From Bosea sp. OAE506 (lineage in GTDB: Bacteria; Pseudomonadota; Alphaproteobacteria; Rhizobiales; Beijerinckiaceae), in assembly GCF_040546595.1 (NCBI RefSeq), contig NZ_JBEPOB010000001.1, positions 3,535,001 to 3,599,000 on the forward strand: a stretch of DNA of 64,000 bases, written 5' to 3'. The position numbers and the translations under genes were made by a program. Numbering within the stretch: the first letter of the stretch is position 1; each line of letters begins with the position of its first letter. Positions 10,460 to 64,000 of the stretch are shown one piece after another. The notes below the pieces were generated by a model that did not search any database, was not told the DNA's origin, and was given only the letters and a program-made list of their open reading frames with translations.

Positions 10460-11677
10460 TCAGTCCTCGACGCGCGACAGCGCCCCTCCGGGGTGGCGGC
10501 GGATCGCACCGTCCAGTTCGAGATCGAGCACGGTGCGGCTGACATCGCGGGCCGAACAGCCGCTCGCCCGCACCAGATCGTCCAGCGACACCGGGGCCGC
10601 CCCCAGCAGGGCGAGGAGGCGCGGGCGAATGCCCTCGCTGTGCTCGGTCGTGCTCGCGGGATCCGGCGTCACCGCCGCGGGCTCCGGCCAGAGCGCCAGC
10701 GGTGCCGGCTCGATGCCAGGCAGATCGAGTTCGTCCCAAAGGGGCTGCGTCTGCGTCTCACCCGCGCCCTCATGCATCGCGGGCGGAGGCTGGAGAAGCG
10801 CGCCGTCCGTCCCGATGAGGGGCGCCAGTGCCTCGACGACATGGGCGGCCTCGGCGCAGAGCGTCGCGCCCTCGCGGATCAGGTGATTGCCGCCCTCGGC
10901 GCGAGGATCGAGCGGCGAGCCGGGGACGGCGAAGACGATCCGCCCCTGCTCGTTGGCGAAGCGGGCGGTGATCAGCGAGCCGGATTTGCGGACGGCCTCG
11001 ACCACGACCGTGCCCAGCGACAGCCCCGAGACGAGGCGGTTGCGCCGCGGAAAGTCGCGCCCCCGGGGCGCGAGGCCGAGCGGCATCTCGCTGATCGCGG
11101 CGCCGTCCGCCAGGAGGCGCTGCAGCAGCGGGATGTTCTGCGGCGGATAGACCTCGTCCAGCCCGCCGGCGAGTACCGCGACCGTGCCCGTACCGAAGCT
11201 GGCTTCGTGAGCGGCCGTGTCGATCCCGCGTGCGAGGCCGGAGACGACGACGAAGCCCGCTTCGCCCAGGTCACGCGCGAGACGCGCGGTGAATTTCAGC
11301 CCGGCGGCGGAGGCATTGCGCGAGCCGACGATGGCGACGCAAGGGCGCAGCAGCACCTCGGCCCGCCCAAGAACGGCGATCAGCGGTGGGGCGGTGTCGA
11401 TCGCCTGCAGCGCGGGCGGATAGGCGGCCTCGCCCAGGGCGAGGAGGCGGGCTCCACGCCGGCGCAGCCCCTCCATCTCGCGCTCGGCCTCCGCGAGCGT
11501 GCAGATTCGAAGCGTACGGCCGGCCTGGCGCGCGAGATCGGGCAGCGCCTCGATGGCGGCCGCGGCCCCGCCGAAGCGGTTCATCAGCGAGCGGAAGGTG
11601 CGCGGGCCGACGCTTTCGCTGCGGATCAGCCGCAGCCAGTCGAGACGCTGGCGATCGCTGAGGACGATGCCAGCCAT
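10460..11677 (-). CDS. dprA: DNA-processing protein DprA
   Basis: A 405-aa protein that loads RecA on incoming single-stranded DNA during transformation. It has an N-terminal helical region ([20 protein letters not shown]). The Rossmann-like DprA core contains [31 protein letters not shown] and [22 protein letters not shown]-terminal winged helix ([19 protein letters not shown]) follows a Pro-rich linker. The start [10 protein letters not shown] is chosen because an ATG 57 bp upstream would overlap plsY. It follows plsY by 7 bp in a plsY-dprA unit. The other competence gene in the window, comEC, is interrupted. Confidence 0.92.
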
Positions 11678-11684
11678 GGGGGCC

Positions 11685-12308
11685 TCAGCCCTTCTGCCCG
11701 ATCTTGCCCTCGCTCCCGGCGAGGAGGCGAGCAATGTTCGCCCGGTGCATGAACCAGAGCAACAGGGTGAGCACGGCCATCAGTGCCGCCGCCTTGGCGT
11801 CGCGCACCCAGAACAACAACAGCAGCGGCGTCAGCAGGCTCGCAATCAGGGCCGACAGCGAGGAATAGCGCGTGAGATAGGCGATGCTGAGCCAGAGCGC
11901 GGCGAAGATCAGGGCGATCGAGCCCTTCAGCGCGATCAGGATGCCGAGGAAGGTGGCGACGCCCTTGCCGCCCTTGAAGCGCAGCCACACCGGGAAGAGG
12001 TGGCCTAGAAAGGCGCCAAGCCCCGCCACCAGCCCTGCCTCGCGCCCGCCGAGCAGGGCGGCGGCGAGCAGCACGGCCGCCGTGCCCTTGAGCATGTCAC
12101 CGAGCAGGGTAAGCGCCGCCAGCTTCTTGTTGCCGGTGCGCAGGACGTTGGTCGCGCCGATATTGCCCGAACCGATGCTGCGCAGATCGGGCCCGCCGCT
12201 CAGGCCGGTCAGGATGATGCCGAAGGGAATCGAGCCGAGCAGATAGCCGAGCACCAGCGCAGCGGCGCCAGCCGAGCCGGACAGGCTCCAGTTCATCACG
12301 TCGCTCAT
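11685..12308 (-). CDS. plsY: Glycerol-3-phosphate acyltransferase PlsY
   Basis: A 207-aa inner-membrane enzyme that transfers the acyl group of acyl phosphate to glycerol-3-phosphate, the first step of phospholipid synthesis. The three PlsY motifs are present: [11 protein letters not shown] with [13 protein letters not shown], then [21 protein letters not shown], then the late membrane segment with [10 protein letters not shown]. Length and hydrophobic profile are normal. An AAGAGGCGG ribosome site precedes the ATG. It lies between the pyrC-like gene and dprA on the same strand. Confidence 0.93.
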
Positions 12309-60816: not shown

Positions 60817-62173
60817 TTAAGGGAGGCGCTCGGCATCGGGCGCGTCCTCGCCCGGCGGCGGCGGAGCTGTGCTCGCGGGTGTTGGCGCGGGCTGGGGACG
60901 ACGGCGGCTCCAGGGCCGTTCGCCGGTATCCTGTGCCGCGAGGTTTTGCCAGCCAGACCTGGTCTTGACGAGTGCGGTCGCCCCGTCGCGTAGCAGCGCC
61001 ATCCTGTCGATCAGCCGCGCGCGGCAGGTCGCGGTCCAGGGGATCGGTGTCACCACCACATCGGCGCGGCGACAATCCTCGATGATGGCGAGCCGGTCCT
61101 GCGCATAGGCGATACTGTGCCCCTCCTTCGTCGTCATGACGCAGCCGCGGGCATCGCAGGCCGCGCCCTTGCGCAATGAGGGATCGTCGGGCTGGCGGCC
61201 GTCGCCATCCGCCGTCAGCCATTGCTGCATGACGAAGCGGCTCGGCTTGCCTGCAATGACCAGCAGGCCGTCCCTGCCGCGCACCGCGATGCCCGAGCCG
61301 TCGCGCTCGATCAGGATCGCCGGCTTGTCGGGTTTGGCCGCAACGGCGACGCCTGTGACCAGCGGCAGGATGGCCAACAGGCGCAGCTTCGTCGTCCACA
61401 GCGTCGCCCAGAGCAGCGCGGCGGCAAAGCAGCCGAGCGCGGCCGGGCCGAAGGCCGCCAGCACGAGGGTCGAGTGGTCGATGGTCGCGACCCAGTGCGC
61501 CAGCTTCAGCACCACCTCCGAGGCCATGCCCATCAGCCACCAGGCCGGCGCGTCCAGCCCGAAGGGATAGGCGAGCACGCCAAAAACGGCGGCCGGCATG
61601 ACGAAGAGCGAGACGAAGGGCAGCGCCAGCGCGTTGCCCAGCAGGCCGAAGGGGTTGAAGGTCTGGAAATGATAGGCGCCGAAGGGCGCCGTCGCCGCCG
61701 TGGCCAGCAGGGTCGTCACGATGATGCCGCTGGCGGCGATCCAGAGCGGGCGCAGCGGCCAGGGCAGTGCGGGTGGCGGCTGCAACCGGCCGCGCTCCTC
61801 CCAGCGCTCGGCAAAGGCGATCAGCGCCGCGACCGCGCCAAAGGACATCTGGAAGCTCGGCCCCAGCAGCGCCTCGGGCTCGCGCAGCAGAACGATCATC
61901 GCGGCGAGCGCGAGATTGCGCATGCTCAGCGCCGGGCGATCGACGAGGATCGCGCCCAGCATCACCAGCGTCATGATCAGCGAGCGCACCGTCGCAACCT
62001 CGGCACCCGAGAACACACAATAGGCGACCGAGCCCGCCATGGCCGCGAGCGCGGCGATCTTCTTGACAGGCAGACGCAGCGCCAGCGTCTGCGAGAGGGC
62101 GAGCAGCGCCCGCACCAGCCAGAAGATGGTCCCGGCGGCCAACACCATGTGCAAGCCCGAGATCGAGACGATG
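60817..62173 (-). pseudogene. comEC: ComEC/Rec2 DNA-uptake channel, 5' part removed by an insertion
   Basis: The last ~450 codons of comEC remain: SISGLHMVLAAGTIFWLVRALLA, several hydrophobic segments of the competence domain (FQMSFGAVAALIAFAER, FNPFGLLGNALALPF) and a C-terminal soluble region ending PPPGEDAPDAERLP. The gene normally holds an N-terminal OB/DUF4131 part and membrane segments before SISGLHM; these are absent here. The comEC-like reading stops at about 62173, where the sequence becomes unrelated and the serine recombinase begins 66 bp away. The missing part may lie at the other end of the element. Confidence 0.85.
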
Positions 62174-62180
62174 TTAGATA
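62160..62180. other. Probable attachment-site junction of the inserted element in comEC
   Basis: The comEC identity ends just before the codons for IVSISGLHM on the minus strand. Past 62173 the DNA reads atgttagatagatattg, more AT-rich than comEC. The exact core and crossover bases cannot be fixed without the other junction. Confidence 0.55.
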
Positions 62181-62239
62181 GATATTGCCGGCAGCGATTC
62201 CGATACGGTAGGCAAAGGCCATAAACCGGAGCCAATCCA

Positions 62240-63850
62240 TTGACCAATAAAGCATACTCATACACTCGAATTTCAAGTAAGCATCAACGGCAGGGCGTGG
62301 GCATTGCACGCCAAATCGCAAACACGCAAGCATACTGCGCAAAAATGGGATTCGATCTCGACACTGAATTTCGCGACGACGGCCTGAGTGCTTATTCTGG
62401 CAAGAACCGCAAGGGTGGTGAACTGCGCCGTCTGCTCGAATTGATCCAAGCCGGCCGGATCAAGAAGGGCGAGCATTTGATCATCGAAGCCGTTGACCGT
62501 TTGTCCCGCGAGAATACCTTCACGGCCTTCACGCAGTTCTCGAACATCATCGCGGCTGGCGTGTCCATTCACACCACTAGCAACAGCGAGATTTACAGCG
62601 CCGCCGAGCTTCAGGCCAATCCGGGCAAAATTTACATGCTCGTCGGCATGATGCAGATGGCCAACGACGAGAGCGCCAAAAAGTCCTTCCGTGGTGAGGC
62701 GAACTGGAACTTCAAGCGGCAGGCGGCTGGCAGCCGGAAGATGACTTGCCGTGTTCCCGCGTGGATCGACGCCACCCGCGTCGATAAGGAGATCGTCTTC
62801 AAGATCAATCCGGAGCGCGCGGCAGTCGTTAAAGACATCTTCGACATGTTCGTCGGCAAGGGCGGAATGGGGCGCGGCTCGATCGCTGCTCATCTGAACG
62901 CTAAGGGCGTGAAGCCCTTCGGTAAGGCCAAGATGTGGCATGGCGGCACCGTGCAGAAGGTCACGGACAATCCGGCCGTGATCGGCCACCTGACGCCCAT
63001 GACGACCCTTGTCGATGAGGGCGATCCTCGCCGCCGTAAGCCTGCCGGCGAGGTCATCAAGAATTACTATGATCCGATCATCACCGAAGCTGTTTGGGTT
63101 CGCGCTCGCCAACAAGCTAGTGAGAGTTCCGTGACGCCGAAAAACAAGGGCGGCAGGCGCGGGACGGTTTTCAACAACCTCTTCAGCGGCCTTCCCTGCT
63201 GCGAAAATTGCGGCCAGCCCATGCGCTACAAGGATCGCGGCGTGCGCTCTTTCGTTGCGTTCCGTTGCTCGACGGATATCGAGACTAAGGGGAAGTGCAA
63301 CCCGACGCGCTTCCGCTACCGGGAGCTTGAGGACATCGCGATCACGCTCTTTCAGGGCATCAGGCTGACGCAGGAGAATGCTCCGGACGATCTCGAAGAG
63401 CGGATTGCGAACCTGAAGCTTCAGGAGGAGGCTGTTCGGAAAGGGATCGACGATATTGAAGCGGAACTCGACGGTGACACGACGGGAACCAAAATCCGGC
63501 TGATCGGAATGCGCACTGCAAAGCTCGCCGAGTTGCAGTCAGAGCGTCAGAAACTTGAAAGCGAGCAGGTCGCCCCCTTGGGGGACAGCCTCGCTGATGC
63601 GATGCGGGCCTTCGTCGATTTTCGGGCGACGACGGCAACTCTCGCCAACGAGGATCGTTTCCGGGCTCGCGCTGCCCTCAACCACGCGTTCAAAGCCCTG
63701 ATCGAGACGATGAGCTTCACGAACGACAATATCTGCAATGTGACGCTCAGGGATGGACAGAGGTTCGTCTTCGCTCCGCCAAATGTTGCGGTGGAGGGCG
63801 AACCGAAAGCCGGCCACGCGCGGCTGATCGCCTACAAGTTGGCGGCCTAA
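62240..63850 (+). CDS. Large serine recombinase (integrase of an element inserted in comEC)
   Basis: A 536-aa serine recombinase. The N-terminal catalytic domain has YTRISSKHQ (nucleophile Ser12) and AVDRLSRE (R87/R90). A recombinase domain follows (residues ~150-290, PERAAVVKDIFDMF...GGMGRGSIAAHLN). A zinc ribbon starts with CCENCGQPMRYKD (C321/C324) and includes CSTDIETKGKC. A coiled-coil (residues ~395-450) and C-terminal region finish it. The start is TTG at 62240, 8 bases after GGAG. Its codons are less GC-biased than the neighbours. It most likely integrates a phage, ICE or island; cargo lies beyond the window. Confidence 0.92.
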   Translation: MTNKAYSYTRISSKHQRQGVGIARQIANTQAYCAKMGFDLDTEFRDDGLSAYSGKNRKGGELRRLLELIQAGRIKKGEHLIIEAVDRLSRENTFTAFTQFSNIIAAGVSIHTTSNSEIYSAAELQANPGKIYMLVGMMQMANDESAKKSFRGEANWNFKRQAAGSRKMTCRVPAWIDATRVDKEIVFKINPERAAVVKDIFDMFVGKGGMGRGSIAAHLNAKGVKPFGKAKMWHGGTVQKVTDNPAVIGHLTPMTTLVDEGDPRRRKPAGEVIKNYYDPIITEAVWVRARQQASESSVTPKNKGGRRGTVFNNLFSGLPCCENCGQPMRYKDRGVRSFVAFRCSTDIETKGKCNPTRFRYRELEDIAITLFQGIRLTQENAPDDLEERIANLKLQEEAVRKGIDDIEAELDGDTTGTKIRLIGMRTAKLAELQSERQKLESEQVAPLGDSLADAMRAFVDFRATTATLANEDRFRARAALNHAFKALIETMSFTNDNICNVTLRDGQRFVFAPPNVAVEGEPKAGHARLIAYKLAA

Positions 63851-64000
63851 CGCGCCGAAATCCGAGCGTCGGCTTTAATGGTCGACGCTCGTTTAGGAGG
63901 CCCCCAGCGGCGTCTTATGACGAGCGCAGGTCCATCCGATACAAGAGCCTGCAAGGCCGCCCACGGCCCTCCTATCTGCCGAGCTTCGCCTCACATCGGC
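63851..64000. other. Non-coding end of the window, within the inserted element
   Basis: An inverted repeat (CGAGCGTCG / CGACGCTCG, 63863-63891) just after the recombinase stop is followed by TTT and may terminate it weakly. ATG 63917 opens a frame to the window end (MTSAGPSDTRACK...), too short to judge. Confidence 0.4.

Follow-up and report, generated by a model that had tools for sequence, protein, structure and literature searches.

comEC lies in two pieces on either side of an 8.2-kb element

The window, a stretch of 64,000 nucleotides from the genome of Bosea sp. OAE506 (G000:C1:3535001-3599000, in an assembly of one 5.0-Mb contig that is 99.98% complete), holds the 3′ part of a comEC gene, which is read on the minus strand, adjoins lexA and breaks off beside a gene for a large serine recombinase (LSR). 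We followed this locus beyond the window in a stretch of 15 kb (L007, in which the coordinate plus 60000 gives the window-equivalent position), and found the following features, listed in order.

60817..62174, minus strand: 3′ piece of comEC, corresponding to the intact reference from about residue 312 to its C-terminus and starting V-SISGLHM
62167..62174, minus strand: 8-bp att core ACATCGTC (comEC strand), the copy at the comEC 3′ side, with the predicted G|T crossover at 62168-62169
62168..64000: portion of the 8,197-bp element inside the window, the remainder lying beyond it
62186..62193: TGCCGGCA, a palindrome that forms one att arm of the element at a distance of 17 nt from the central G|T
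62240..63850, plus strand: LSR of 536 aa with a TTG start
L007:4007-5065, minus strand (opposite to the LSR): three small ORFs of no known function
L007:5117-5476, plus strand: small ORF
L007:5317-6057, plus strand: Rep of the REP_ORF2-G2P family, start uncertain, HUH-type motif read by eye
L007:6506-7141, minus strand: small serine resolvase
L007:7310-8771, plus strand: AriA-like ATPase spread over two overlapping frames, with the break at the Walker A motif (by eye)
L007:8771-9760, plus strand: AriB-like DUF4435 protein
near L007:10018-10300, minus strand: small ORF
L007:10341-10348 (window-equivalent 70341-70348): other TGCCGGCA arm
L007:10364-10371 (window-equivalent 70364-70371): second copy of the ACATCGTC core, at the comEC 5′ side
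L007:10364-11341 (window-equivalent 70364-71341; genome 3605364-3606341), minus strand: 5′ piece of comEC, beyond the window

The minus-strand frame of the 3′ piece occupies the DNA between 60817 and the junction (62168-62174), confirming the interruption that the initial annotation had described at the SISGLHM site; the SISGLHM codons themselves, which it had placed outside the reading, belong to the 3′ piece and immediately follow the junction in the reading direction. In Pfam comparisons only positions 25-268 of the Competence domain are matched by this piece, and uninterrupted copies of the genus start at position 1. The 5′ piece, for which a search had been proposed at the outset, carries the DUF4131 domain, has a gene of glutamyl-tRNA synthetase type as its neighbour, and lies on the same strand with 8,197 bp between the two junctions. 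Compared with the reference intact ComEC (a 766-residue open frame in G148), residues 14-321 correspond to the 5′ piece at 72% identity and residues 312-765 to the 3′ piece at 81%, and both halves are without stops. A simple deletion of comEC was rejected, since the missing 5′ half was located 8.2 kb from the 3′ piece, in the same orientation. Integration linked to a tRNA was also rejected, as no tRNA was found in the 15-kb locus.

The DNA between the junctions has a GC content of 0.535 vs 0.691 and 0.682 in its two flanks, in line with the AT-richness first noticed from its window portion. Against 24 intact copies, the comEC 3′ half has a median pN/pS of 0.284, the copies' own values being 0.287-0.385; this unreduced constraint fits a recent insertion, would also be expected of a gene restored from time to time, and carries little information on age.

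Junctions show the geometry of site-specific integration

The core ACATCGTC is present at both element ends and at no other place on that strand of the 15-kb locus. Along comEC, the junction reads ...GGCATCTACCACATCGTC|ATGTGCG on the 5′ side and ...ATCTATCTAACATCGTC|TCGATCTCG on the 3′ side. Rejoining the flanks gives LRAAGIYHIVSISGLHM, which is in frame and whose reading, IYHIVSISGLHM, is that of intact relatives; the target codons are YHIV|SISGLHM, with the G|T crossover point falling in the valine codon. Joined the other way, the element ends form an att site with TGCCGGCA 17 nt either side of G|T. We scored its symmetry over 30 positions each side of the centre, using 2000 mononucleotide shuffles as the null, and obtained 19/30 at G|T, with 14 at the next best centre and only 0.1% of the 2000 shuffles reaching 19.

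The element thus has the two features of LSR-type att sites, a short core common to attL and attR and symmetry about a dinucleotide, here G|T. Because the same 8-bp core stands at both junctions, the joined flanks read like intact relatives and the element att is symmetrical, we interpret the locus as site-specific integration and not deletion; the earlier proposal of a serine-recombinase element inserted in comEC is upheld by halves in register, a common core and an in-frame empty site. Near each element end TGTTAGATAG also occurs once, at L007:2172 and L007:10320, at unequal distances from the core.

Content of the element

The LSR noted initially is present beside comEC, and its Resolvase, Recombinase and zinc ribbon domains (PF00239, PF07508 and PF13408, Pfam) are complete and joined in one protein, as LSR membership entails. 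Rep matches REP_ORF2-G2P with E 2e-6, and one relative besides itself was found, in Bosea sp., 82% identical over 81% of the query. PHROGs comparisons of 10 element ORFs gave integrase, DNA invertase and transposase families (all three via the serine recombinases), replication initiation and families of unknown function, with no phage structural or packaging genes among the 10.

Two other readings of the element were tried and rejected. A prophage is not supported, 10 ORFs having given no phage structural match, and the element was not classed as a temperate phage; for insertion by transposition, no transposase-only family turned up in these 10 ORFs, and the LSR att geometry accounts for the ends.

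No excisionase was recognised among the element ORFs. Megablast searches of 50,697 phage and 72,556 plasmid records found no direct DNA relative of the element, and apart from the LSR its genes lack counterparts in the 164 loci examined, weak resolvase matches excepted. A direct repeat, GTTCGATTTGACTAGT / GTTCGATTTGACTTGT, 29 bp apart (L007:7158-7202, window-equivalent 67158-67202), stands between the genes for the small resolvase and the AriA-like ATPase and is perhaps the site of the small resolvase.

Related recombinases occupy the same comEC site in other genera

LSRs, as treated here, are site-specific integrases with predicted attP and attB. A first scan of species genomes with the single window LSR gave no match. 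A second scan, made with an alignment of four LSRs against one genome per species (84,980 species) and keeping only loci with one of two short peptide patterns, gave 38 loci, the best six of which (30-40% identity) all adjoin a comEC cut at the same site. Their hosts are a Bosea, a Hyphomicrobiales MAG, a Microvirga and three Methylobacterium. For the other 32 loci, at 20-27% identity, the adjoining DNA examined held no comEC match, and the same was true of seven viral-contig loci.

Three of the six LSRs (L056, L057 and L058, the last from Microvirga splendida) adjoin a comEC 5′ piece that stops at reference residues 317-319, and the three Methylobacterium LSRs (L059, L060 and L061) adjoin a 3′ piece starting from residues 297-314; the comEC coordinates of L056/L057 are the same as those in the genus genomes G248/G216. 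Both comEC pieces are present in 6/6 of these genomes. They share one contig in G421 (about 66.7 kb apart) and G422 (about 49.6 kb apart) and are on different contigs in the other four, where the two ends are therefore unproved as one element.

At the level of att symmetry, G|T is the best centre in Microvirga G420 (19, reached by 0 of 2000 shuffles), Methylobacterium G423 (19, 0.05% of shuffles), G421 (16, 2.7%) and G422 (15, 13%), the 3′ end of the last being nearly identical to that of G421, and the symmetry is absent at G|T in G216 (12, tied; 75%) and G213 (8; 100%). G|T is hence the best centre in five of seven elements, namely the window element and four of the six others; the two exceptions count against the explanation that we prefer below. 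An artefact of assembly or a chimera is extremely improbable in view of this junction geometry, common to elements in other genera, and of the single, near-complete 5.0-Mb contig.

In a tree of 31 LSR rows, a branch with 100/99 support parts six comEC-inserted LSRs (the window's, L056-L059 and L061, with L060 omitted as a near copy of L059) from five LSRs of other places; 20 rows of unknown place, eight of them on the comEC side, were left uncounted, and the software flagged long branches. The stem that leads to the window LSR is long (1.63), and its join within the comEC group has 94/81 support. Across the branch, L009, L010 and L011 adjoin comM, and L012 and L013 have neither comEC nor comM in the adjoining DNA examined. 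The adjoining DNA examined for two LSRs of the window's own genome (L004 and L005) likewise held no comEC or comM match. We define a comEC-targeting LSR group by insertion at YHIV|SISGLHM and a place on the same side of the supported branch, and the window LSR belongs to it on both counts.

comEC and comM are interrupted across the genus

We found a comEC match in 65/67 genus genomes, and in six of the 67 the gene is interrupted by islands of serine- or tyrosine-integrase type, which occupy two sites in all. The site of the window element (G000) is also cut in G216 and G248, each with an LSR beside the cut, and in G213, where a 13.1-kb island (L046) has the 12-bp repeat CTACCACATCGT at both ends and an end, GGATTAACC, that resembles those of G216 and Microvirga. 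No LSR match was obtained anywhere in the G213 genome, and its island is perhaps a remnant. At the second site, HFQTFNP, G222 and G189 (L049 and L050) carry satellite-like islands of 15.7 and 14.7 kb with a tyrosine integrase beside the junction, a prohead-protease gene and defence-like genes. Left out of the count were G209 and G255 for their frame breaks, G233 and G234 for low similarity and odd frames, and G225 and G232, which gave no match.

The G213 island, at the same site in a genome lacking an LSR match, indicates that dead remnants may exist, and the frame-broken AriA-like gene would suit such a fate for the window element too, as an old insertion fixed by its lineage's loss of transformation and no longer mobile. 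We regard this as improbable, since its LSR is open with all domains, its att symmetry is present, and the comEC halves are free of stops, with the 3′ half constrained like intact copies.

comM is interrupted in at least 10 of the 67 genomes (L152-L168, in G110, G199, G200, G203, G206, G230, G243, G246, G249 and G255), near residues 219-227 and just before the Walker A motif GPPGAGKS. The 5′ piece ends at the cut in 10/10 of them and an LSR stands beside the cut in 9/10; in G255 the 5′ side alone was read, without an LSR, and no 3′ piece is among the matches listed. G212 and G248, with incomplete comM, were kept out of this count. All 67 genomes match PF01078, the weak matches in G232, G233 and G234 (E 1.6e-4 to 1.7e-8) being probably other ATPases. 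As a control, MutS domain III matched in 66/67 genomes, at full length in 64/66 and, in G237 and G238, in parts on separate contigs; this control is weak because it is one domain, and not the most conserved part of MutS.

LSR-domain matches number 95 in 43/67 genomes, fragments included, of which at least nine are beside comM and three beside comEC by coordinates, the other 83 being unplaced. No genome is in both the comEC and the comM list (comM is truncated in G248 and comEC frame-broken in G255), and we make no claim of mutual exclusion because chance alone gives this outcome with a probability of 0.36. Together, comEC or comM is interrupted in at least 16/67 genus species genomes (6 + 10).

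Family-wide, comEC matched in at least 371/397 genomes. Inspection of 18 genomes with two or weak comEC matches, among the matches listed, found many pieces at contig ends and G024 alone notable, for which reason we give no family rate of interruption. In G024, from another genus of the family, about 35 kb separate the two parts of comEC, and the split lies at a third position (L119/L120, G024:C2:190672-226838).

Candidate defence-type cargo

The element resembles the PARIS system (AriA/AriB) in having an AAA_21 ATPase gene adjacent to a DUF4435 gene, with products scoring 47.1 and 67.7 bits vs published profile thresholds of 27 and 27. The AriB-like protein is at most 38% identical to the AriB-like proteins found (nine besides itself). 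Unlike PARIS, the element has a broken AriA-like frame, the ATPase gene being split over two frames, which may be a mutation or a sequencing error; PARIS defence is described as needing both genes (PMC9122126).

Seven of 10 hand-picked island proteins match candidate defence families: PDC-S36 in G213; a CAP12-type TIR, a GmrSD-like and a ThsB-like TIR protein in G222; PD-T7-3 and PD-T4-6-like proteins in G189; and PDC-S06 in G422. One protein each of G213, G222 and G248 was without a defence-family match. Together with the PARIS-like pair of the window element, these matches suggest that comEC islands carry defence cargo, as a lead only, because we chose the proteins by hand and have no background rate for comparison.

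Proposed function of the comEC target and comparison with known systems

Site-specific insertion is shown by comEC halves in register, identical cores, att symmetry centred on G|T, the full domain set of the LSR and the presence of its relatives at this site in other genera. Our preferred explanation, which we hold to be probable, is that an 8.2-kb integrative element inserted itself through its own LSR at a fixed comEC site, and that this target is kept likeliest as an escape from chromosomal curing. The LSR would integrate at the YHIV|SISGLHM codons, with crossover at G|T in the valine codon, and as long as the element stayed integrated no full-length ComEC would be made; DNA uptake by transformation should therefore be off. 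The LSR and a presumed helper would excise the element and restore comEC exactly. A host unable to take up DNA could not lose the element through recombination with DNA that lacks it ('chromosomal curing'); this escape is the likeliest reason for LSR lineages to keep the comEC target, combined with the practical advantage of a coding site that is highly conserved. The element may also replicate by its rolling-circle Rep, and its cargo is putatively of anti-phage type.

The choice of target could instead be neutral, LSRs settling on coding motifs whose high conservation makes them available in many hosts, and loss of transformation being a by-product of no benefit to the element. This account is compatible with the integration itself and opposes only the reason given for the target. 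comEC and comM are indeed both cut at conserved motifs (SISGLHM, and just before Walker A GPPGAGKS), and prolyl isomerase is another common target in an LSR survey, in which competence genes are also reported to be strongly enriched among the targets (PMC10083194). This enrichment, and the fact that two transformation genes are hit in Bosea by different integrases, tyrosine ones included, tell against neutrality, which we consider a possible but less likely explanation than escape from curing.

The third option, raised by the initial annotation, is a reversible switch. In Listeria, a prophage that splits comK excises and so restores the gene; conditional excision here would restore comEC in frame and turn uptake on, to be followed by reintegration. 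The att sites, LSR and both comEC halves look undamaged, the halves join exactly in frame and the 3′ half is not eroding, which speaks for a switch. A recently integrated LSR element without a switch would look identical, however, and there is neither a recognised excisionase nor a link from the element to a competence signal, which leaves a switch unlikely. Inactivation of transformation through target choice is the more economical account. The Listeria system is alike in that an integrase element splits a competence gene (PMC4774983) and differs in that comK is a regulator.

Elements that attack transformation genes are already known, including an LSR prophage in streptococcal comEC. Phi1207.3 (formerly Tn1207.3) and Tn1207.1 of Streptococcus are, like the window element, serine-recombinase elements at a fixed dinucleotide inside comEC/celB (PMC4260502), and for Tn1207.1 the authors infer a loss of DNA import (PMC8321556). 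Phi1207.3 is described as a 52.5-kb phage with macrolide-efflux genes, three serine recombinases and a GA dinucleotide, whereas the window element is 8.2 kb long, uses G|T, encodes Rep, one LSR and a small resolvase besides its defence-like cargo, and belongs to Hyphomicrobiales. Competence-gene-targeting elements considered in terms of chromosomal curing (Croucher 2016; comYC, comFA, comK and comM) are comparable in that related integrases keep their target across species and different integrases hit it convergently (PMC4774983). Section 11 of that article does not list comEC as an LSR target in Alphaproteobacteria, and its main text lacks the words 'alphaproteobacteria' and 'serine'; comEC is also absent from the main text of the LSR survey of Durrant et al. 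2022. The open-licence literature yielded no paper on Bosea and comEC, which is weak as an absence. In published reports, inactivation of comEC drops Acinetobacter transformation below the detection limit (PMC11472951), a tyrosine-integrase prophage is inserted in ComEC of Variovorax (PMC9658991), and transposable elements interrupt comEC in Piscirickettsia, whose authors call disruption of comEC by mobile elements rare (PMC12955456).

More broadly, and only tentatively, we propose that Hyphomicrobiales harbour a dedicated serine-integrase lineage that has kept one codon-level comEC address at about 30% identity, and that comEC and comM of Bosea are a standing battleground, where elements with anti-phage cargo would switch off transformation, possibly reversibly by in-frame excision. 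The parts worth following are the comEC address common to several genera and the genus-wide pattern. The locus bears on whether mobile elements gain by disabling transformation, for which the published tests we are aware of concern streptococci, Acinetobacter and Legionella. Because the element is small and complete, with defined att sites and an exact empty site, in a genus with at least 16/67 genomes interrupted, the idea is testable by comparison and excision assays.

Elsewhere in the window, dprA is intact at 10460-11779 on the minus strand with all three DprA domains, in agreement with the initial annotation.
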